From Rhodobacter aestuarii (GTDB lineage Bacteria > Pseudomonadota > Alphaproteobacteria > Rhodobacterales > Rhodobacteraceae): a DNA stretch of 64,000 bases. Below the pieces are notes generated by a model that was not told where the DNA came from, ran no database searches, and saw only the letters and a program-made list of their open reading frames with translations. The translations under genes were made by a program, and so were the position numbers. Below are positions 1,033-12,314 of the stretch, piece after piece. Within the stretch, counting starts at the first letter, position 1. Each line of letters begins with the position of its first letter. The stretch covers positions 1-64,000 of the forward strand of contig NZ_FTOG01000008.1 in the NCBI RefSeq assembly GCF_900156655.1, read 5' to 3'.

Positions 1033-1498
1033 GAAGGTCAGATCTCCATTATAGCAACGATCTAGGGAACTGCACCATAAGCAAACGCTTGCGCTCGACA
1101 GCAAACTTGATCGCCCAGGTTCTGGGAGCTTGAAGAAGAATCCGTAGTACGCTGCTCCGGTAGGCATAAGTGCCAGCACGGCTCAGCTTCTAGCTTTGGC
1201 AACATGGACTAGCCTTGAGCCACACCTACCCAAGCCAGAGTTAGATGTGTGTTCCCTTTCGCAAACGCCTCTGACATCGAAGTGTTCAGGTGGGGCGTCA
1301 GGAAAAACACGAAATTTCTGGTAGTTACAAGCTATTCACCAAATCGGCGCAGTCATGAGGTCTGGAGAATATCGGCCCTGAGAGAGCGCTTGCGAGCCTC
1401 CTGGCGCGGGAGCCGGTGCTCTGCCCCGCCCGCATAACCCTCGAAAACAACGGAAAAATCCGGCCGCAGCCGGATCGGGAGAACGCTTTCGTCAGGGC
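1033..1498. other. Region without a recognisable gene between IS and integrative element
   Basis: About 470 bases lie between the IS end and the left att copy. The longest open frames (for example 1249-1437 plus) are short and show no family motif. The sequence is less GC-rich than the core genes in its first half and contains no tRNA. Probably intergenic or decayed sequence. Confidence 0.5.
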
Positions 1499-1515
1499 AA
1501 GTGGCGGACGGGAAG
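1499..1515 (+). repeat. att site, tRNA-distal copy (17 bp)
   Basis: Identical over 17 bases to 8636-8652, the 3' end of tRNA-Ser; identity stops immediately outside on both sides. It lies 138 bases before the integrase start and marks the left limit of the element. Confidence 0.8.
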
Positions 1516-1653
1516 CCCGCCATGAAGGAGGTGCGAGGCTTCGCGGCTTGTCGCATTTAGTGTTTCCAGGCCAATGCCTTATCGGTTTTCCTGTCGCAAG
1601 CTGTTGCAATGAATCGCGACCATGCGTAGATTTTATGGAGGGTAAGAGTATGG

Positions 1654-2952
1654 GTGCGCGATATGCCGAAGATTGCCAAGGAACTTTCCCCCCTCGAAGT
1701 TAAGAACCTGCGCCACACCGGCAACGGGCAAAACGCTGTTTTTGCGGTGGGGGGCGTTGCTGGCCTTATGCTCCAGATCACCCGCAACGGTGGCCGCACA
1801 TGGCTGTTGCGCGTCAAGGTGGGGGCGAAGCGGCGCGAGATTGGCTTGGGCGGTTTCCCCGATGTGACGCTGGCACAGGCACGCGAGCGCGCGCGGGAGG
1901 TGAAGGACCAAATCCGGCGCGGTATCGACCCGGTGGAAGAACGCAAAGCCGCGCGGGCATCGCTGATTGCGGCGCAGCGGCGGGGGCTTTTGTTTCAAGA
2001 CGCGGTTGATCGTTGCCTTGCCTCTAAGCTGGATGGCTTCAAGAACGCTAAACACCGCGATCAGTGGCGCAACACGCTGGACAGTTACGCCGTGCCGGTG
2101 CTGGGCGGGATGATGGTGGACCAGATCACGGTGCAAGACGTGCTGCGCGTTCTGCAACCCATCTGGCAAGCCAAAACGGAAACCGCATCGCGGCTGCGCG
2201 GGCGTATCGAGGCGGTGTTGAGTTGGGCCACGGTGGCGGGGCATCGCACGGGCGACAACCCGGCGCGGTGGGCGGGCAATCTGAAAGAACTTTTGCCGCC
2301 GCCCGACAAGGTGGCCGAAAAGGGAAATCAACCGGCGCTTTCGCTGGATGATGTGCCCCGCTGGATGGCCGAATTGCGCAAGCGAGAAGGCTTTGGGGCG
2401 CGGGCGCTCGAATTTGCCGCGCTGACCGCTGCCCGGTCGGGTGAGGTGCGGGGCGCGACATGGGAGGAAATCGACCTAGAGCGCGCGCTGTGGGTGATCC
2501 CTGCCGAGCGCATGAAGATGAAGCGGGAACACCGCGTTCCGCTGGCCCCCGCCGCTGTGGCGTTGCTGGAGGCCCTTCCGCGCCTTGAAGGCTGCGCGCT
2601 TGTGTTCCCCTCAACCAAGGGCAAGCCGCTTAGTGACATGACCTTGAGCGCGACCATGCGGCGAATGCACGAAAGCGAAGTTGCCGCGCAGCGCCCCGGC
2701 TTCCTTGATCCCCGCAACAAGCGCCCCGCTGTGCCGCATGGGCTGCGCTCGACCTTCCGCGATTGGGTGGCCGAGGCGACAAGCTATCCCGGCGAAATGG
2801 CTGAGGTTGCGCTGGCACACCGCATCAGCAACGCGGTGGAGGCGGCGTATCGTCGGGGCGATATGATCGAAAAACGCCGCCGCATGATGCACGATTGGGC
2901 CGAGGCGCTGGGCGGCAAGCGCAAGGGCGGTAAAGTGGTGAGGCTGAGCTAA
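1654..2952 (+). CDS. P4-type tyrosine-recombinase integrase
   Basis: 432 residues, the usual size for P4-type integrases. An N-terminal DUF4102-like arm-binding region (about 10-95, with RTWLLRVKVGAKRREIGLGGF) precedes a core-binding domain and a C-terminal catalytic domain. The tyrosine-recombinase signature is complete: R261 (TAARSGE), H362-x-x-R365 (HGLR), H389 (LAHR) and nucleophile Y399. The GTG at 1654 is chosen because a GGAGG lies 12 bases upstream; ATG at 1663 is an alternative. It most likely inserts and excises the surrounding element at the tRNA-Ser 3' end. The next gene starts one base after its stop, suggesting co-transcription. Confidence 0.95.
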   Translation: MRDMPKIAKELSPLEVKNLRHTGNGQNAVFAVGGVAGLMLQITRNGGRTWLLRVKVGAKRREIGLGGFPDVTLAQARERAREVKDQIRRGIDPVEERKAARASLIAAQRRGLLFQDAVDRCLASKLDGFKNAKHRDQWRNTLDSYAVPVLGGMMVDQITVQDVLRVLQPIWQAKTETASRLRGRIEAVLSWATVAGHRTGDNPARWAGNLKELLPPPDKVAEKGNQPALSLDDVPRWMAELRKREGFGARALEFAALTAARSGEVRGATWEEIDLERALWVIPAERMKMKREHRVPLAPAAVALLEALPRLEGCALVFPSTKGKPLSDMTLSATMRRMHESEVAAQRPGFLDPRNKRPAVPHGLRSTFRDWVAEATSYPGEMAEVALAHRISNAVEAAYRRGDMIEKRRRMMHDWAEALGGKRKGGKVVRLS

Positions 2953-2953
2953 A

Positions 2954-3640
2954 ATGTTTGCGCCTAAAGGATGGATTTCCCTACGAGAGGTCTATGAATA
3001 CTTCGTATCGGCATATTCACAAAAAGATAAAATCGGCGACTTTCCATTCACGGGCGACGAGTGCTTTCAATTGACATGGTTCTTCGCGTTTGAGGCCGAA
3101 GAAGTCGCAGTTTGCACAGCCGATGGAAACGCCCTGCCAGTTTCTAGAAGCTTAGTCACAACCGAAAATTATTTCGATCACGAAAACGAACACATTGATC
3201 TGCATCTTGGAACCGTTGGCAGTGGCAGCATAAGAGGTTTGGAGGTGTTCCCCGGAAATTATTCCGTCTTGACCGAATATCTTAAGACGACCTACGGGCC
3301 ATTTCTTGATCTTCCAGTGATTTTTCGTAGGTCTGATTTTTTGGATTACCTTGATGATCTAGAGGCTGATCATAACAGCAGTGATCAGCATGAAAATTCT
3401 TTGCCTGAAATTGATCAAATTGATCTTTCACCTAGAGCGACTTGCGAAAAAATATTGAAGGCTTGGAGAAACGGCGAGGCAGCAACACGGGAAACGATCA
3501 GAGCTTTAGTTGCTCCCAATCATTCGGTGCGAAAGTTTCAACTTGCGTGGGAGCTTGCTCGTGAGCAAGCGCCCGAAATCTCTAGGCCGGGCAGGAAAAA
3601 ACAGAAAACCCAACGCCAATGTATCGAAACGGAAACTTAA
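2954..3640 (+). CDS. Hypothetical protein of the integrative element
   Basis: 228 residues, no family recognised. The protein is acidic and rich in aromatic residues to about residue 165, without signal peptide or membrane segment, and ends in a basic Lys/Arg tail. Its base composition is clearly AT-richer than the core genes, a sign of different ancestry from its neighbours and of transfer. It starts right behind the integrase stop, so it is probably co-transcribed with it. The region around residues 165-200 (RATCEKILKAWRNGEAATRE) looks helical and could be a small recognition or binding domain, but no function is claimed. Confidence 0.7.
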   Translation: MFAPKGWISLREVYEYFVSAYSQKDKIGDFPFTGDECFQLTWFFAFEAEEVAVCTADGNALPVSRSLVTTENYFDHENEHIDLHLGTVGSGSIRGLEVFPGNYSVLTEYLKTTYGPFLDLPVIFRRSDFLDYLDDLEADHNSSDQHENSLPEIDQIDLSPRATCEKILKAWRNGEAATRETIRALVAPNHSVRKFQLAWELAREQAPEISRPGRKKQKTQRQCIETET

Positions 3641-3718
3641 TCGCGACACCTATTTAGGCGTATGAACGCCATGCAGACTGCTGCCAATCGCGAAACCTTA
3701 CGATTGGAGCGCATCGCA

Positions 3719-3901
3719 ATGGCTGACACCTATCTTTCCGACCTTCAACTTGCCACCCGCTATGGGGTGCATCGAGCAACCCCTTGGCGCTGGGCGCAAA
3801 CAGGTAAATTCCCGAAGCCGGTGAGTCTCACACCCGGCTGCACCCGTTGGAAGCTCTCCGAAATCGAAGCATGGGAAGCTGCGCGCGCGGGCACGAAGTA
3901 A
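3719..3901 (+). CDS. AlpA-like helix-turn-helix regulator / excisionase
   Basis: 60 residues. ATG at 3719 is preferred over 3662 because GGAG lies 9 bases upstream and because the domain begins here. The motif LSDLQLATRYGVHRATPWRW followed by FPKPVSLTPGCTRWKLSEIEAW is the MerR-like winged HTH of the AlpA family. These proteins activate integrase expression or act as excisionases in P4-like and related islands. Its stop overlaps the next start (TAATG). The position two genes after the integrase fits a role in controlling excision. Confidence 0.82.
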   Translation: MADTYLSDLQLATRYGVHRATPWRWAQTGKFPKPVSLTPGCTRWKLSEIEAWEAARAGTK

Positions 3902-4452
3902 TGGGTCGGCATCGACAAAATGAAAACCGCACCGAGCAATTCGCAAAGTGGATATATCCGCACCGATTGTTACCCGCGTGGAAAAGCCTAACCTTTCCTG
4001 CAAGAGACGCCTACTTTCATTTGGCGGTGCGTTGCTTCGCCGAGACAGCCGAGAAAAGACGAAACGCGACCAACAACAATGGCGCGCTCTATCGCTCGTT
4101 GCGCTCCCTAGCCGACGACATGGGTTGCAGCGTAAAAACGGCAGGCGCGGCGCTAGCAGATTTACAGGCGAAAGGCTGGATCGTCTGCACCAACGAATGG
4201 GAGCGCGGCCTTGATGGAAAAGGAAAGACTGCGACTTTTAGGCTTACCATGATGCCCATGCCGGGGCGCACCGCGACAAAAGAACCGGAACGCTGGAGCC
4301 TAGGGCACGACTATCCTGTTCTTGTTTACGCAAGCTATTTGCCAAAGCCGCGATCAAGACGATTGGAGAACTTGTCGAGAAAACAAAACCCACCCCCCCA
4401 TTCGGGCACAGTGGTGCAACCGAAACGGACACAGTTGAAAGCGATAAAATGA
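3901..4452 (+). CDS. Winged-helix DNA-binding-type protein, possibly replication-related
   Basis: 183 residues from the ATG that overlaps the AlpA-like stop (TAATG), pointing to translational coupling; the longer frame from 3847 would run into that gene. The middle (about residues 60-100, with SLRSLADDMGCSVKTAGAAL then DLQAKGWI) reads as a winged helix-turn-helix. The beginning (P-x-AWKSL-x-FPARDAYFHL) resembles the N-terminal part of small replication or helix-turn-helix proteins found on mobile elements. The C-terminus is basic and proline-rich. A replication or regulatory role is inferred from fold and place only. Confidence 0.65.
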   Translation: MGRHRQNENRTEQFAKWIYPHRLLPAWKSLTFPARDAYFHLAVRCFAETAEKRRNATNNNGALYRSLRSLADDMGCSVKTAGAALADLQAKGWIVCTNEWERGLDGKGKTATFRLTMMPMPGRTATKEPERWSLGHDYPVLVYASYLPKPRSRRLENLSRKQNPPPHSGTVVQPKRTQLKAIK

Positions 4453-4460
4453 CCTGCTGG

Positions 4461-4519
4461 GCCCTAATCGGTCACGGAATTGCATGGCATCAAGCTAGCG
4501 AATGTGCCCTATTCGGTCA
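4461..4519 (+). promoter_or_regulatory. Pair of 14-bp direct repeats upstream of the XRE gene
   Basis: GCCCTAATCGGTCA at 4461-4474 and GCCCTATTCGGTCA at 4506-4519 match at 13 of 14 positions, 45 bases apart start to start. They sit in the 120-base gap before the XRE regulator at 4574. Likely operator half-sites for that regulator or another element protein. Confidence 0.55.
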
Positions 4520-4573
4520 TATATCTAATCGCCATGTGATATGCTCTTGCGGTTCGCAATGTGAGGACGTGCC

Positions 4574-5071
4574 ATGACTGGCCCAGAGTTGGCCGCAATC
4601 CGCAAAACTGCGGGCCTTTCGCAAGCCGAACTGGCCCAACGCGCAGGCATTGGTCGCCATGCGGTGAGCTACTGGGAAAACAGGCCATCCGTTGATCTTC
4701 GCGCATGGGCCATTTCGCGTATGGCAAAGGTGCTCGAACTGCCGAAGCCTCCCGCGCTAGGTTGGCGTTTGCGTTCAACTTGGGAGCGCGATTTGGAAGC
4801 GCAGGTTGAGGCGGCATTCATTGCTCGCGTGATACGCCTTAGGGCGCGCACTGAGGCGGCAGCGGCAAAGCGCAGAGTGATCTGCGAAGCGAAGACGCGC
4901 AAGGGCACCCCGTGCCGCTGCAAGAGTGAACCCGGCAAGCGTCGATGTAAATTTCATGGCGGCAAGAGCACCGGCGCTAAAACTCCCGAGGGGCGTGAGC
5001 GTATCGGTATGGCGCAGAGACAGCGCTGGGCTAAGTGGCGCGCCGAACGATTGAATAACTATCAAGCCTAG
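4574..5071 (+). CDS. XRE-family regulator with C-terminal Cys/His HGGKSTG domain
   Basis: 165 residues. Residues 4-57 form a canonical lambda-repressor-like HTH (LAAIRKTAGLSQAELAQRAG then VSYWE). The C-terminal part (about 100-165) has CEAKTRKGTPCRCK, a further Cys, then KFHGGKSTGAKTPEGRERI, the signature of the HGGxSTG family. The Cys and His spacing suggests a small metal-binding fold. HGGxSTG domains are common on phages and islands but their role is not established. Upstream are tandem repeats; about 230 bases downstream is the restriction-modification gene, so it could act as a controller of that gene, though it is longer than typical C proteins. Confidence 0.8.
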   Translation: MTGPELAAIRKTAGLSQAELAQRAGIGRHAVSYWENRPSVDLRAWAISRMAKVLELPKPPALGWRLRSTWERDLEAQVEAAFIARVIRLRARTEAAAAKRRVICEAKTRKGTPCRCKSEPGKRRCKFHGGKSTGAKTPEGRERIGMAQRQRWAKWRAERLNNYQA

Positions 5072-5298
5072 CCTCGCGGGGTGGGGTGATAGCCAAAATC
5101 AAAAACTACATCCCGGAAACAGAAATGCGAATGTCGGTTTCTGAGACCATTACGCGCGCACGCGGGCAAGGGGTGTTAGGCGTTGCCGGTTAATCTTGGG
5201 TCACACACGAGGAAGATTGACACACTAAGGCGCTGTTTGCCTTGGCACATGTTCTCCCATAAAGTCCGCAAAACACACATTGTCTTTCGATTGAGAAA

Positions 5299-8200
5299 AT
5301 GAACCTTTTCAACCGCAAAACCCTGCTACGGCACATCAAACCCGCCCCTATTCCGGGCGACCATCTCGCCGCGCTGGAAGCTTGGGCGGAAATGATCAGC
5401 TCCGGGCGCATCTACTCCTTGAAGGAAACCGCCCTTCACGGCCAATTCGCGGCCAAGATTATCGAGGGCGTTCTTGGCTACCATGGGCCTGCGGGCGGGG
5501 CCGAATACACCGTCGCCACCGAACAGGCGATCTTGCAGGGCAGTGTTGATCTGGCGCTTGGCCGGTTTGGTGGGGCAAAGCCTGAAATCCTTGCCCCGTT
5601 CGAACTGAAGGGCGCAAAAACCAGAGACCTCGACGCGATCATGCCGGGGCGCAACAAGACCCCGGTTCAACAGGCGTGGGAATACGCCATGAACGCGCGC
5701 GGGGTGAAATGGGTGCTTGTCTCGAACATGATCGAGCTGCGCCTGTATGGCTTTGGTGAGGGCACGAGCGCCTATGAAACCTTCCAGCTCGACCGGCTGA
5801 CCGATCCCACCGAATACGCACGGTTCATGCTGCTTCTGTCTGCCGAAAGCCTGCTTTCTGGCCGCACCCTCGATCTGCTGAAGCAAAGCCGCGCCGAAGA
5901 CCGCGACATTACCGACGCCCTCTATTTTGACTACAAGGCGCTGCGCCTGAAACTGATAAGGGCCGTGCAAGCGGCTGACGCCAGCATCGCGCCACTGGAC
6001 GCAATCGCCACCGCCCAGAAGATCCTCGACCGCGTGCTGTTCATCGCCTTTGCCGAAGATACCGGCCTGCTACCCGACAACACCCTTTCTCAAGCCTTTG
6101 TCACCCGAGACCTCTACAACCCCCGCCCGGTCTGGGAGAACTTCCGGGGCCTGTTCAACGCCATCGACAAGGGCAGCGATGCCCTTAAAATCCCCCGCTA
6201 CAATGGGGGCCTGTTCCGCCCGGATGCCGTTATCGACTCGCTCACGCTGCCCGATGACGTCTGCGAAGGCTTCAAGACCCTGGGCGAATATGACTTCGCG
6301 TCCGAAGTATCCGTCACCGTTCTGGGCCATATCTTCGAACAATCCATCGCTGACGTTGAACGCCTTCAAAAACAGGCGCGCGGCGAAGAGGTCGAAGAAG
6401 AACGGGCCACCGGCACGACCGGGCGGCGCAAGCGTGACGGGGTAGTCTACACCCCGGATTACGTCGCCCGCTTCATCGTGGCGGAAACCCTTGGCGCGCA
6501 CCTCGAAGAAGCCTTCACCGAGATTCTGCGCGCCCATGCCAAAGCCGGGGCCGATCTGTCCGACTATGCTGCGATCCCGTGGCGCAGAAAATCGGCAGAG
6601 CTGGAAGCGTGGCAAGCCTATCGCGACCGGCTGAAGACCCTGCGCATTGTCGATCCCGCCTGCGGATCGGGGGTTTTCCTGATCATGGCCTTTGACTTCC
6701 TGAAGGCCGAACTGTCGCGCGTGAATGACAAGATTGCCGAGCTGCAAGGCAAAGATCAGCACATCCAAGACCTTCTGGACCCCGACAGCGAAATCCTGAC
6801 GAACAACCTGTTCGGGGTAGACGTGAACGTCGAAAGCGTCGAAATCGCCAAGCTGTCGCTCTGGATCAAGACCGCGCGACGCGGCAAGGTGCTCGACAGC
6901 CTCGACGGCAATTTGCGTGTGGGGGATAGCCTGATCGAAGACAGCAACTTCGCCTATCTCGATCACGCTTTCACTTGGGAAACCGCTTTCCCAAGCATCT
7001 TTGCCGAAGGCGGCTTCGACGTGGTTCTGGGCAACCCGCCCTATGTCCGCATGGAATTTCTGAAGACTCTGAAGCCCTACCTCGAAAAGCGGTATGAGGT
7101 GGCCTCCGACCGCGCCGACCTTTACTGCTACTTCTACGAACGCGGCCTGCGCCTGCTGAAACCGGGCGGGCGGCTGGGGTTCATTTCCTCGAACACCTTC
7201 TTCAAGACCGGATCGGGCAAACCACTGCGCGACTACCTGCGGCGCGAAGCGACACTCGAAGGCGTGGTCGATTTTGGCGACCTGCAAATCTTCGAAGGCG
7301 TGACCACCTATCCGGCCATCCTGACCCTGAAACGCGGGGCTGCGCCAAAGGAGCATGAACTGCGCTTCTGGAAGGTGGATGCCCTGCCCGAAACCAACTT
7401 TCAGGCCACTTGGGGGAAGGTCGCAGGACCATATCCGCAAGCCGCCCTCGGGGCCGGGTCATGGGAGCTGGAAAACCCCGCCCTGCGCGCCCTGCGCGAC
7501 AAGATCAGGACGGGCAAGAAAACCCTGAAGGAGGTCTACGGCTCGCCGCTCTACGGCATCAAGACGGGCTTGAACGCAGCTTTTGTGATCGACAGCGCCA
7601 CCAAGGAACGCCTCTGCGCCCAAGACCCACGGTCTGCCGAGCTGCTGAAGCCCTTCCTCGAAGGCAAGGACCTGAAACGCTGGCGGGCCGAACCGCGCGG
7701 CCTTTGGCTTATTTACGTTCCGCAACGCCGCGTCAATATTGACGAATATCCGGCCATCCGGGATTGGCTTTTGCCATTCAAAAAGAAGCTGGAAGGCCGT
7801 GCTACGAAACAGGAATGGTTCGAGCTTCAGCAAGCGCAGGAAGCATATTCGCCCTTCTTCCAACCGCCAAAAATTGCCTATGGTCACTTCCAAGATCAGC
7901 CGATCTACTCAATGGAAACTACTGGGGCCTTCTCAAACAACAAAACCTACTTTGTCCCGAATGGTGGGTGGGATTTGCTTGCCGTCCTAAATTCAAAAGT
8001 GATCTGGTTTGATTTCTGTTCCAGAACGACGGCTGTTCGGGGTGGGTGGCGCGAAGCTACCGCGCAGCATATTGAACCCTTACCTATGCCTACAATAGCT
8101 GCGAGCGCCAAATCAGAACTAGAATGGCTGGCGAAAGCTGCCAGCGAAGCGGCACAGGAACGCTTGACCCTGCAAACCGCCCTAACTCGCCGCATTCCCG

Positions 8201-8484
8201 ATCTCTGCCCACCTGGCCGCGCCCCCAAGCTGACAACGCGGCTTCAGGAATGGTGGACCTTGCCCGACTTCGCCGCCTTCCGGGCCGAGGTGAAGAAGGT
8301 GTTCAAAGCCGATATTCCGCTGGCCGAGCGTTCCGAGTGGGAAGACTGGATCACCCGCGACCGCGCCGAAATCGCCCGTCTGTCCGCCGAGATTGCCAAG
8401 GCCGAAGCTCAGATCGACGCTATCGTCTACACCCTGTTCGATCTGACCCCCGACGAAATCGCGCTGCTCGAAAGCGCGGTGTAG
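5299..8484 (+). CDS. Type IIG restriction-modification enzyme (Eco57I/TaqI-like single protein)
   Basis: 1061 residues. The N-terminus has a PD-(D/E)xK nuclease pattern: D84 (GSVDLAL), E102-L-K104 (FELKG) and Q125. A helical linker leads to an adenine-methyltransferase domain with KRDGVVYTPDYVARFIV, motif I DPACGSG at 452-458 and motif IV NPPY at 579-582. The C-terminal third, starting near YGSPLYGIKTGLN, resembles the TaqI-C target-recognition domain and ends in a coiled helical tail. One polypeptide would thus recognise, methylate and cut DNA. It is the only large cargo of the element. Compared with BREX PglX it has its own nuclease motif and lacks partner genes. Recognition sequence cannot be read from the protein. 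Confidence 0.9.
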   Translation: MNLFNRKTLLRHIKPAPIPGDHLAALEAWAEMISSGRIYSLKETALHGQFAAKIIEGVLGYHGPAGGAEYTVATEQAILQGSVDLALGRFGGAKPEILAPFELKGAKTRDLDAIMPGRNKTPVQQAWEYAMNARGVKWVLVSNMIELRLYGFGEGTSAYETFQLDRLTDPTEYARFMLLLSAESLLSGRTLDLLKQSRAEDRDITDALYFDYKALRLKLIRAVQAADASIAPLDAIATAQKILDRVLFIAFAEDTGLLPDNTLSQAFVTRDLYNPRPVWENFRGLFNAIDKGSDALKIPRYNGGLFRPDAVIDSLTLPDDVCEGFKTLGEYDFASEVSVTVLGHIFEQSIADVERLQKQARGEEVEEERATGTTGRRKRDGVVYTPDYVARFIVAETLGAHLEEAFTEILRAHAKAGADLSDYAAIPWRRKSAELEAWQAYRDRLKTLRIVDPACGSGVFLIMAFDFLKAELSRVNDKIAELQGKDQHIQDLLDPDSEILTNNLFGVDVNVESVEIAKLSLWIKTARRGKVLDSLDGNLRVGDSLIEDSNFAYLDHAFTWETAFPSIFAEGGFDVVLGNPPYVRMEFLKTLKPYLEKRYEVASDRADLYCYFYERGLRLLKPGGRLGFISSNTFFKTGSGKPLRDYLRREATLEGVVDFGDLQIFEGVTTYPAILTLKRGAAPKEHELRFWKVDALPETNFQATWGKVAGPYPQAALGAGSWELENPALRALRDKIRTGKKTLKEVYGSPLYGIKTGLNAAFVIDSATKERLCAQDPRSAELLKPFLEGKDLKRWRAEPRGLWLIYVPQRRVNIDEYPAIRDWLLPFKKKLEGRATKQEWFELQQAQEAYSPFFQPPKIAYGHFQDQPIYSMETTGAFSNNKTYFVPNGGWDLLAVLNSKVIWFDFCSRTTAVRGGWREATAQHIEPLPMPTIAASAKSELEWLAKAASEAAQERLTLQTALTRRIPDLCPPGRAPKLTTRLQEWWTLPDFAAFRAEVKKVFKADIPLAERSEWEDWITRDRAEIARLSAEIAKAEAQIDAIVYTLFDLTPDEIALLESAV

Positions 8485-8635
8485 TGTGCAACGATCTAAG
8501 CCTAGGCCACAGACAAGGTGAATCACAGAGCCGATTGGCCTGAAAATTATCCTTGCACCCAAGCGCAAAATTAAAGGCGGGTGCTTTGGCGGGTATCGTC
8601 AAAAAATTGCGATTTTATCCAATTATTTCAATGCT

Positions 8636-8652
8636 AAGTGGCGGACGGGAAG
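8636..8652 (+). repeat. att site, tRNA-Ser 3' end copy (17 bp)
   Basis: Identical to 1499-1515. It covers the CCA end, discriminator base, 3' acceptor strand and first T-stem bases of the minus-strand tRNA-Ser plus three bases beyond, so insertion leaves the tRNA functional. Confidence 0.82.
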
Positions 8653-8728
8653 GGATTCGAACCCTCGAGACGGTTCCCCGCCTACACACTTTCCAGGCGT
8701 GCGCCTTCGACCACTCGGCCACCCGTCC
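8639..8728 (-). tRNA. tRNA-Ser (anticodon GGA)
   Basis: 90 bases on the minus strand. The 5' GGACGGG pairs with 3' CCCGTCC, followed by discriminator G and an encoded CCA. The D-arm GGCCGAGTGGTCGAAGGC, the anticodon arm with loop containing TGGAAA (anticodon GGA), the long class II variable arm and the T-arm GGTTCGAATCC are all present. Its 3' end serves as the integration target of the neighbouring element. Confidence 0.97.
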
Positions 8729-8814: not shown

Positions 8815-11286
8815 TTAGCGGCCGTCTCCATCCTCTGTGCCGTCGTTATCGGAAAGCCGCGCCATCGGCCCAAGTTCTGTGGGCGTTTTGTTGGGGCTTG
8901 CTGCAACTGGGGCAGGGGGCTTGGCCTCGGGCGCTTGCCCCAGAAGCGTTTCGGGATTTTTGATCCAGATATCGCGCTGCGCGAAGGGGATTTCGATGCC
9001 ATGTTCGGCGAAGCGTTCGGCGATCTGGTGGTTCATCTCCGACATGACACTCAACTTGAAATTCACATCCGACAGGATCGCGCGAATTTCAAAATCCATG
9101 CTATCGGCGCCAAAGCCCCGGAACAGCGCATAGGGCGCAGGCGTCATCATCACCAGCGGATGCGCTTGTGCGATCTCGGTCAGGATTTTCTCGACCTTGC
9201 GGGTATCGGTGCCATAGGCCACGCCCACCGGCACGATCAAACGCCCGGTTTTGTTGCCACGGGTCCAGTTTGTCACCGTGCCGGAAATCAGGTCCGCGTT
9301 GGGCACAATTACATCGGTGCGGTCGAAGGTTTCCACCACGGTGGAGCGGACCGAGATGTTTTTCACAATCCCATGCTGGCCGCCGACCTCAATCCAGTCG
9401 CCTTCGGAAATCGGGCGTTCGATCAGCAAGATGATGCCCGAAACAAAGTTCTGCACGATGGTTTGCAGGCCAAAACCAATGCCGACAGAGAGCGCACCAG
9501 CGACGATGGCAAGCGAGGAAAGGTCAATCCCGGCGGTAGAAATGGCGATCAGTGCGGCCAAGAACAGGCCCAGATAGCCAATGCCCGAGGTGATGGCGTT
9601 TTGGCCGCCTTTGTCGAGCTTTGTCTTTGGCAAGATCGTGGTTTTGAGCGCGCCTTGAAACGCACGGGTGAGCGCATAGCCGATCCCAAAGACCACCGCG
9701 AAGGTGATGAACGAGGTGGGCGAAATCCGCACCCCGCCGACCGAAACCCCGTTTTTGAAAGCGGTCCAAAGCTCGATCAGGTCTTCGACGCGGGCGCCCC
9801 AGACCAAGGCCAGAACCGGCAGCGAGGCGAGCGAGATCAGGAAGCCGCCCAGAACCGGGATCAGCGCGTCACGGCGCACATCTTCGCCCCGTGCGATGGT
9901 GACGTAAAGCTCGGCGATGAAGCGTTGCAAGATCGCGACTGTCGCGAAAAGGCCAAGCGTCAGCACGGCGGGCCAAATCAGCGCATCGGCCGCACTGATA
10001 TAGCCGATCGTGCCCAGCACCGGGGCCGCGAGCGCAATCAAGATCAGCGCGGTGCCCAGCCAGCTGAGGAGTTTGCGGCGGAAAACGCCTTCTTCGTTCT
10101 CGGAGGTATTGCGGCTTTGCCGCCGCAGGAGTTGCGCCATCCGAAAAAGTGCAATTGCGGCAAAGATTTGCAACGGTGCTTGCAGGACAGAAAGCGCGGC
10201 ATCCGCGCGTTCGGCCACCGCTTGCGCTTTGTCTGCGGCCACATTGCCCGCGCCACCAAGGAAATTTTCAGCACGGGGGGCCACCCACAGCAACACCAAT
10301 TGATGCGTGGCAAGGGCAAGCCCAAGCGACAGCGCGTGAATGCGCCCCTCGGCGCGGCCTTCCTCGCCCAATTTGAGCGCGCTTTCCACACCGCCCCGCA
10401 TCGGGAAGATGCGGGTGCCAAGCCACCAAGCCATCATCACTGTGAAAAGAAGCGTGGGCGCAATTTCAAAAAGCTCGGTCAGGATCGGCCCGAAAAGGGA
10501 GGTCTGCTTGAGGGCTATGGTCAGCAAAATTGCGCCAAAGGTCGGCAAGATCACTTGGCCGAGGGAAACCAAGGCGGAAATCACGCCGCGCCCGCGCATC
10601 GCGGTTTTGCTCAGCAAAAAGTCCGTCAGCCGTACCATCCAGCGCCGACCGCGGGCTAAAAGCACCAGCGCCATCAGCACGAGGCCCAAGATCACCGGGG
10701 CATTGTTGCGCAGCTCATCAAAATTGATCGGCTGGGTGAAGCGCCAGCGGGTCTCGTCATAGATCCATTCGCCCATCCAGCGCAGAAGCGAGGCGGCAGC
10801 AGGCCAGTTCACCGGGTTCGCAGCCGAGGGCGAAAGCCGCAGCATTTTATCGGCCTGACGTTCGCGGATCAATTTATCAATTGCGCGGATCGTGCTGTCT
10901 GCGCGGCTCGCAGCCTCGGTCGCGGTGATGCCGGGGGCTTGCAGTTTCGCCAGTTGCTCGCTGAGCTCTGTGCGGCGTTTCGCAATGGCCTCGTCTTCCG
11001 TTGCCCCTTCTTCGGGGGCGGGGCCAAGGGCGGCCAATTGGTTTTTGACCGTGGTGATCTGATCGGTATTGGCGCTTTGGGCTTCGGTCAGGGTCGCGCG
11101 CCATTTGACCATTTCAGCGCGCAATTCGTTGAGCTTTGCATCGCTCATCGTGGCTTCGGAAACGGCCTTTTCCACCTGCGTGGAAAGCTTGTCGAAAGCT
11201 TTATAATCTGGTGCGACTTCGTCTTGCGCCGCGACCGGCAGCGCCAAAACCAAAAGCAAAAGAAAGGTCTGGAGCCAAATCCGCAT
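8815..11286 (-). CDS. MscS-family mechanosensitive channel (DUF3772-containing)
   Basis: 823 residues from ATG at 11286, which overlaps the cysK stop by one base (TGATG); the longer open frame to 11499 only shadows cysK. A signal peptide ([20 protein letters not shown]) leads to a periplasmic helical region with DUF3772 character, then about ten membrane segments. The MscS core near residues 560-780 contains [20 protein letters not shown] (pore helix and gate) and the beta domain with [13 protein letters not shown]. The protein should gate ions under hypoosmotic shock at the inner membrane. The C-terminal tail is Pro/Ala-rich. Coupling to cysK suggests a shared transcript. Confidence 0.92.
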
Positions 11287-12314
11287 CAGGCAAAGACCTC
11301 CGGCAGGCGGCGCGCGGGGGCCGACATCCAGCCGGGAACGGGCAAGCCTTTCTCTGCCAAGAACGCCGGGTTGAAGAGTTTTGACTGATAGCGAGTGCCG
11401 TAATCGCATAGCACGGTGACAATCGTGTGGCCCGGACCCATTTCGCGCGCCATGCGGATCGCACCTGCGATGTTGATCCCCGCAGACCCGCCGACGCATA
11501 GCCCCTCTTCGGCAAGCAAATCAAAGATGATCGGCAGGGCCTCGGTGTCGGGAATGCAAAAGCTCATATCCGGCGTGAACCCCTCAAGGTTTGCGGTGAT
11601 CCGGCCTTGGCCGATCCCCTCGGTGATCGAGGAACCCTCGGATTTCAGGGTGCCGGTGGTGTAGAAGCTGTGCAGCGCGGCGCCTTCGGGGTCAGCCAGC
11701 GCGATTTTCACGCCCTTCGGTTGCAGCGCCATACCGGTGCCTGCCAAAGTGCCGCCCGAGCCTACGGCGGCGACAAAGCCATGCACCCCGCCTTGGGTCT
11801 GCGCCCAGATCTCTGGCCCCGTTGTTTCGATATGGGCTTGGCGGTTTGCGGTGTTGTCGAACTGATTGGCCCAGATCGCGCCGTTAGGTTCGGTTTGTGC
11901 AAGTTCTTCAGCCAAACGGCGCGAGTAGTGGACATAATTGTTGGGATTTGAAAAGGGGGCCGCGGGCACTTCGACCAGTTCCGCCCCCGCTAGACGCAGC
12001 ATATCTTTCTTTTCTTGGCTTTGCGTCTTCGGGATCACGATCACCGTGCGAAAGCCCATCGAGGCCCCCACCAGCGCCAGCCCGATCCCGGTATTGCCTG
12101 CCGTCCCCTCGACAATCGTGCCACCGGGCGCCAGTGCGCCGCGCGCCACCGCATCGCGGATGATGTAAAGCGCGGCCCGGTCTTTCACCGATTGGCCGGG
12201 GTTCATGAATTCGGCTTTGCCAAGGATCGTGCAGCCGGTGGCTTCGGAGGCCTTGCGCAGGCGGATCAACGGCGTGTTGCCGATCATCGCGGCAAGGTCG
12301 GGGGAGAAGGTCAT
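11286..12314 (-). CDS. cysK: Cysteine synthase A (O-acetylserine sulfhydrylase)
   Basis: 342 residues. Makes cysteine from O-acetylserine and sulfide using pyridoxal phosphate in the cytosol. The PLP lysine is K44 in NPGQSVKDRAA; the substrate loop is GTAGNTG (70-76), where many CysK proteins have TSGNTG; GSGGTLAGTG binds the cofactor phosphate. Length is normal. It follows trgB by 74 bases and overlaps the MscS-type gene. In Rhodobacter sphaeroides cysK lies beside trgAB and contributes to tellurite resistance, so this order supports an oxyanion/thiol-stress cluster. Confidence 0.93.
   Translation of the reverse strand: MTFSPDLAAMIGNTPLIRLRKASEATGCTILGKAEFMNPGQSVKDRAALYIIRDAVARGALAPGGTIVEGTAGNTGIGLALVGASMGFRTVIVIPKTQSQEKKDMLRLAGAELVEVPAAPFSNPNNYVHYSRRLAEELAQTEPNGAIWANQFDNTANRQAHIETTGPEIWAQTQGGVHGFVAAVGSGGTLAGTGMALQPKGVKIALADPEGAALHSFYTTGTLKSEGSSITEGIGQGRITANLEGFTPDMSFCIPDTEALPIIFDLLAEEGLCVGGSAGINIAGAIRMAREMGPGHTIVTVLCDYGTRYQSKLFNPAFLAEKGLPVPGWMSAPARRLPEVFA

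Follow-up and report, generated by a model that had tools for sequence, protein, structure and literature searches.

The element and its empty sites

Six open reading frames, all reading rightward, lie between two copies of an exact 17-bp direct repeat, AAGTGGCGGACGGGAAG, at 1499-1515 and 8636-8652 of the window, the whole 64,000-nt stretch of Rhodobacter aestuarii DNA analysed here. Both copies are on the + strand, they are the only two in the 3.84-Mb genome, and they stand at the two ends of the element, 7,137 bp apart from repeat start to repeat start (7,154 bp with both copies included). The proximal copy (8636-8652) coincides over 14 of its 17 bp with the 3' end of the target gene, tRNA-Ser(GGA), since ARAGORN places this gene, which also matches Rfam RF00005, at 8639-8728 on the minus strand. 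The chromosomal right flank continues with a mechanosensitive-channel gene recognised by Pfam (8815-11499, minus strand), which is found near tRNA-Ser(GGA) in congeners too.

The first gene inside the distal repeat is int (1654-2952, +), encoding a 432-aa P4-type tyrosine integrase (Pfam PF00589, PF22022 and PF13356). It is followed by orf2 (2954-3640, +), which begins one base past the int stop, has no family match in Pfam, phrog and further profile searches, and has a weak predicted structure (pLDDT 71). An AlpA-like regulator or excisionase comes next (3662-3901, +; Pfam PF05930, E 4e-6; phrog_66, E 2e-10), and its stop is overlapped by the TAATG start of a winged-helix protein (3901-4452, +). 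The latter is a candidate replication initiator, with a Pfam HTH_36 match at E 2e-6 on a longer reading (3847-4452) and weak phrog replication-initiation matches (best E 1e-4).

The fifth gene (4574-5071, +) encodes a candidate regulator with an XRE-type HTH and an HGGxSTG motif (Pfam HTH_31, E 4e-8; NF041373, E 9e-16). Its AlphaFold model has a mean pLDDT of 87.9, and the folds closest to it belong to XRE regulators, with no match reaching E≤0.001. The idea that it is a small terminase, raised by a Bacillus phage homologue (43% over 60 aa) encoded directly upstream of a terminase gene, is disfavoured by these folds and by there being no terminase among the 50 structure matches listed. A tRNA-Gly(CCC) that ARAGORN calls inside this gene, at 4714-4793, was judged spurious, there being no Rfam tRNA match at that place.

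The last gene (5299-8484, +) takes up about half of the element length and encodes its cargo, a probable type IIG restriction-modification enzyme of 1,061 aa matched by PADLOC model PDLC03609 over aa 38-1060 (E 2e-133). It carries Eco57I, TaqI_C and MmeI-type Pfam domains, and its methyltransferase core gives weak matches to RM.BsaXI and MmeI chains. Judged from these profile matches, the single chain fits type IIG models from end to end, with a predicted methylase core and target-recognition domain. Between this gene and the proximal repeat lies the tRNA-proximal element end (8485-8635), a presumed P' arm, which holds an A/T-rich TCAA-type motif common to relatives and a stretch of 40 bp at 90% identity to one of them (L099). 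Neither Pfam nor phrog recognised a primase, terminase, capsid or other virion or packaging gene in the window copy.

Much of the first-pass annotation is borne out by these searches. The whole-genome repeat search and ARAGORN agree with its exact repeat having one copy at the tRNA-Ser(GGA) 3' end, the list of open reading frames agrees with its six same-strand genes, and Pfam agrees with its P4-type integrase just inside the left repeat; its type IIG cargo enzyme agrees with the PADLOC and Pfam matches along that protein, and, as it had described, no virion or packaging gene was recognised.

It had also predicted an empty site joining 1498 to 8653 around a single repeat copy, and such sites are present in four of the 17 congeners. 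The two element flanks were joined and used as a query against 147 genomes (the element's own genome, the 17 congeners and 129 more distant ones). The four congeners match across the flank junction at tRNA-Ser(GGA), and in each the mechanosensitive-channel gene lies close by. The match is at 92% over query positions 1-282 of 304 in G017, and over positions 1-252 at 91% in G004, 88% in G013 and 88% in G011; the 17-mer is exact in the first three and has one mismatch in G011. Each of these genomes has one core copy at no more than one mismatch, and the joined flanks with a single core indicate that the element is absent from the tRNA-Ser(GGA) site there. Near-complete matches to the joined flanks in G006 and G009 were at tRNA-Ser(GCT). 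Among the 17 congeners, the best matches to the type IIG enzyme are 77% over 86 aa (G003) and 35% (G008), and integrase relatives at E≤1e-40 occur in nine, elsewhere in the genome, the closest at 71% (G010).

These empty sites also bear on whether the repeat is a chance or unrelated match within ordinary chromosome. GC-rich DNA can give short repeats by chance, but shuffled windows contain a mean of 0.01 matches to the 17-bp repeat at ≤2 mismatches, 64 delimited relatives exist (see below), and the empty sites in congeners refute the idea, which we consider scarcely credible. With a tyrosine integrase, direct repeats of which one lies in a tRNA 3' end, and empty sites in relatives, the comparisons identify the region as a tRNA-targeted integrative element.

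The left flank

The window opens contig C6, of which it takes up the first 64 kb, and the contig start falls inside an IS3-type transposase gene (85-993), which is likely an assembly break. This start leaves only about 500 bp of non-IS flank to the left of the element. The IS3-type transposase, at 1-993 of the window, has an ALIL frameshift pseudoknot at 46-162.

The left flank is not ordinary chromosome: its outer part at 1322-1498, here called F, is a conserved end, of about 180 bp, of an older island, and follows tRNA-Ser genes in many genera. With two candidates scored for each genome, 132 of the 394 family genomes have a match to F at E≤1e-10; identities among the matches listed are 78-91%. 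Of 30 inspected loci, window included, 14 abut a tRNA-Ser gene, and all four isoacceptors are covered; in 28 of the 30, the exact core AAGTGGCGGA adjoins F. Plain chromosome was rejected as a description on the grounds that F follows several tRNA-Ser isoacceptors and is also found away from tRNA genes. F being a conserved island end, the window element is a tandem insertion between tRNA-Ser(GGA) and the older island. F stands left of the distal attachment site in 11 of the 64 delimited elements, window included, 59 of which have more than 200 bp of sequence there. A further copy of F was seen at L055 9802-9967.

F-core junctions in complete genomes can stand in tandem arrays, as in G174, and the genes beyond F, read from the sequences rather than by a family-library scan, vary by genome, are often restriction-like and include restriction and helicase operons. 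Searches of the stretches beside F do not support the idea that it terminates an ordinary P4-integrase element. Across eight stretches of 18-60 kb left of F, the integrase model matched in G067 only (E 5e-27) and no second core was found at ≤2 mismatches; the G011 and G017 stretches each have one core match at 3 mismatches. Nine further stretches gave a second F-core junction 6-60 kb away in G174, G261, G312 and G166 and one in inverted orientation in G353, with integrase matches only in G248 (E 9e-25) and in the G353 element of the window's own family. The integrase search of the stretches beside F thus found no recombinase to explain its spread. An RNA was also considered and rejected, F having no Rfam match; the segment 1200-1515 folds no better than shuffles (z -1.4, 10/100), and 1440-1498 can form a terminator-like hairpin (z -2.7, 2/200 shuffles).

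Relatives and their attachment sites

Of 394 family genomes, 88 contain a match to the window integrase at E≤1e-80. We examined 60 of the 100 integrase matches listed, the window apart (the best 56 and four lower ones). In 35 of the resulting 61 integrase regions, window included, a direct repeat of at least 14 bp links the integrase side to a tRNA 3' end. In one further region (L205) the tRNA is right of int and the repeat is only 9 bp, and the remaining 25 have no such tRNA gene in the stretch, 12 of them with at least 15 kb beyond int and the rest being cut short. Because selection required a repeat of 14 bp or more together with a tRNA to the right of int, the int-distal layout and the lower limit of repeat length are partly built in; in L115 a tRNA-Ser is on the opposite side of int. 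The 35 att-bounded elements measure 4,939-16,806 bp (median 11,152). Their targets are tRNA-Ser genes with anticodons TGA (9), GGA (7), CGA (5) and GCT (3), tRNA-Arg with ACG (3) and CCG (1), tRNA-Glu (2), tRNA-Gly (2) and one each of tRNA-Ala, tRNA-Met and tRNA-Cys. Among the matches listed, 80 loci on genome contigs gave 29 further att-bounded elements and 80 on bacterial-virus contigs gave 6; 64 distinct elements, window included, were left after removal of duplicates. In two of them, L321 and L339, the repeats are unusually long and the delimitation is less sure. The genome loci are mostly from Rhodobacterales. The closest integrases among the matches listed, at 82-83%, are those of two Defluviimonas strains, with no att call at those loci.

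The gene order of the window element runs int, a gene touching int, alpA, a replication-type gene, cargo and target gene. Much of this recurs: an open reading frame of at least 150 aa starts at the int stop (-63 to +120 nt) in 44 of 64 elements, at an offset of -4 in 15 and -1 in 9, and 28 of the 29 genome loci bounded by att sites have alpA at a distance of 1.6-2.5 kb from the start of int. Among the 35 elements, a primase-type cluster (Prim-Pol, DUF3987) is present in 14, Toprim in 7 and VapE in 2. The existence of relatives with primase-type genes, set beside the lack of a recognised primase in the window, is what one would expect of a decayed remnant, a former satellite that has lost its replication genes, is now fixed and is kept only by its type IIG enzyme. 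Yet int, orf2, alpA and the winged-helix, HTH and IIG genes are all uninterrupted and both att copies are identical, and we regard such decay as improbable.

Scans of a minority of the proteins revealed restriction, methylase or Cas9-like genes in at least 10 of the 35 elements. They include the type IIG enzyme of the window element; a type III methylase, seen in L105 and indicated by cluster membership in L110, L112, L116 and L210; type I genes (L109, L211); the D12 methylase of L099; and a 1,078-aa Cas9-like protein (L213 5886-9122) in a 12.9-kb element at tRNA-Ser(TGA). Other cargo is not of the defence kind: L217 has glycosyltransferases, L226 and L225 have metabolic or transport genes, and L220 has a histidine kinase. 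Some elements bear packaging or virion-type genes: L189 has a terminase large subunit and HK97-type capsid genes, and shares with L194 the terminase cluster and one unannotated cluster; L208 has a major-head match whose cluster also occurs in L225; and L218 has a tape-measure match. L189, L194, L208, L225 and L218 have element sizes of 10.8-16.8 kb and 9.8 kb.

Type IIG enzymes recur on the same plan. A second element of the family in the same genome (L393; G000:C15, about 178,000-189,000), at tRNA-Glu(TTC), is 9,488 bp long, has an 18-bp repeat and holds a type IIG enzyme different from that of the window. In G004, a 9,552-bp element at tRNA-Ser(TGA) encodes an HTH-HGGxSTG protein 78% identical to the window's and, just downstream, again a different type IIG enzyme. 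A 9,238-bp element of Gemmobacter sp. UBA12163 (L389), at tRNA-Ser(CGA), comprises int, orf2, alpA, the HTH-HGGxSTG gene and a type IIG enzyme. Relatives of the window enzyme itself also occur in 42 PLSDB plasmid records at E≤1e-50, with up to 86% identity, and 25 of these cover at least 80% of its length. An 8,946-bp contig (L062, G043:C16) carries, besides a type IIG enzyme with 85% identity to that of the window, open reading frames of ParA, recombinase and replication type, as read from the sequence; its ends overlap by 127 bp, so it is probably a circle, a plasmid.

The first-pass proposal to look for the same gene set next to other tRNA genes is borne out, similar sets being found at several in related bacteria. 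Its suggestion of a class of mobile defence elements in Rhodobacteraceae stands as regards a recurring family and falls short as regards defence, given that the relatives are not all recognisable defence carriers. No earlier description of this element family was found in the accessible parts of the literature searched, which is not proof of absence.

The delimited elements define the attachment site more closely. Distal-site identity with the tRNA, counted inward from the acceptor end, is 14 bp in 38 of 64 elements, 15 bp in 23, 16 bp in 2 and 24 bp in 1, a distribution whose lower end, unlike its sharp upper end, is partly set by the 14-bp cut-off. In all 52 Ser elements bases one to seven read TGGCGGA; the six positions after these differ according to the tRNA, and the fourteenth is always G. 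The Ser distal sites continue into an inverted half-site, CCGCCA, each base of which is 79-98% conserved (n=52). We infer that the distal site consists of a 7-bp acceptor half-site and an overlap of about 7 bp; in the window, whose exact repeat was compared in architecture across the 64 elements, these would be 1502-1508 and 1509-1515 (+), followed by the putative inverted partner half-site CCCGCCA at 1516-1522 (+).

Target choice was compared with an integrase tree of 64 sequences, made by a quick short search and having several long branches and X in 14 rows. Changes of Ser isoacceptor number at least 25 (52 rows) against a shuffled mean of 28.9, with 5 of 200 shuffles as low; over all isoacceptors there are 34 changes against 40.6 (1 of 200 as low), and amino-acid class changes 9 times against 11.8 (0 of 200 as low). 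From these counts, isoacceptor use appears almost unconstrained, if still short of random, and amino-acid class is the better conserved of the two.

Phage satellites, islands and a possible mechanism

The boundaries, empty sites, attachment-site layout, family and gene order, all drawn from comparison of sequences, can be set against published elements. The first-pass annotation likened the layout to that of P4-like satellites; the gene order fits PICMI of Vibrionaceae better, and these are the closest published layout found. In the PICMI report (PMC10803314), the element is bounded by fis and by a direct repeat that lies upstream of int; int is often overlapped, by ATGA, by another gene, and the stretch between prim and fis houses the defence genes. 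Both PICMI and the window element are small and carry int next to the outer repeat, at the end away from the target, along with alpA and a gene that touches or overlaps int; orf2 is comparable in position to the PICMI iolg/icg genes. A replication gene in most, with defence genes in the slot that separates it from the target gene, completes the likeness (PMC10803314). The two differ in target (fis versus a tRNA 3' end) and in host (Vibrionaceae versus Rhodobacterales), in the window copy the cargo enzyme makes up about half of the element, and this copy has int and alpA but no recognised primase among its six proteins; 14 of 35 relatives have a primase-type cluster. The same report calls fis integration a PICMI hallmark and reports no complete PICMI outside Vibrio (PMC10803314). 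Since its target is not fis, the window element is not a PICMI by that published definition; we think that it probably works like one.

P4-like satellites (PMC8628076) likewise have a P4-type integrase (28% identity to that of P4), AlpA and a defence hotspot, but their gene order differs, and the window element has no Pfam match to Psu or delta at E≤0.1; a third P4 gene, Sid, is published as a custom profile. Gram-negative PICIs (PMC6092414) are alike in int, alpA, a replication gene and cargo that interferes with host phages. Neither terS nor another packaging gene is recognised in the window element, and for the HTH-HGGxSTG protein there is only a weak positional hint of such a role.

IntY/tmRNA islands supply the main rival. 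As described in PMC12595487, they too combine a tyrosine integrase with alpA and defence cargo, have a repeat of 14 bp at the 3' end of an RNA gene and lack transfer genes, but intY is at the tmRNA end with alpA at the other end, and the three prototypes measure 23-55 kb. By this account the window element would be a plain transducible island, moved rarely by Int and AlpA, spread by general transduction, natural transformation or conjugation in trans, and beneficial solely through its defence cargo. The shared short repeat and gene content of the IntY islands (PMC12595487) and the lack of a recognised packaging gene in the window copy agree with it. The replication-type genes and, in some relatives, the terminase or head genes fit a satellite better, and the gene order follows PICMI, and we think a plain island rather unlikely.

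Because some relatives carry terminase or head genes, a phage-satellite lineage is the best reading, and the window element is probably an integrative element of the phage-satellite kind. Counting against this, the copy has no recognised primase, terminase or capsid gene, neither a helper nor a circular form nor virion DNA was seen, and 25 of the 61 integrase regions have no tRNA to the right of int in the stretch. For such a satellite, we infer excision, the roles of AlpA, orf2 and the winged-helix protein, packaging by a helper and restriction, as follows. Int would recombine a circular attP with the tRNA-Ser 3' end through the acceptor half-site TGGCGGA and its inverted partner, and strand exchange across the overlap of about 7 bp would restore the tRNA and leave int at the tRNA-distal end. 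Excision would be driven by AlpA, perhaps assisted by orf2, once a helper phage or another signal switches alpA on, the winged-helix protein would start replication, and the helper phage would package the element DNA. The type IIG enzyme, in the slot between the HTH-HGGxSTG gene and the tRNA, would shield both host and element.

More tentatively, and as a possibility in which we place less trust than in the satellite reading itself, the family may be a phage-satellite lineage widespread in Rhodobacterales. Its integrase would chiefly recognise the 7-bp acceptor end common to many tRNA genes and tolerate exchange of the overlap of about 7 bp, and so would hop near-freely among the four tRNA-Ser isoacceptors; its members would range from minimal defence carriers such as the window element to bearers of their own terminase and capsid genes. 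The integrase clade makes target switching testable, as related integrases with a 14-15 bp common core are found at different isoacceptors. If the satellite reading is right, the minimal plan of the Vibrio satellites (target gene, defence slot, replication gene, alpA, int-adjacent gene and int) would also exist in Rhodobacterales, with tRNA genes as targets, and the element family would be a route for the spread of restriction systems in Rhodobacterales.
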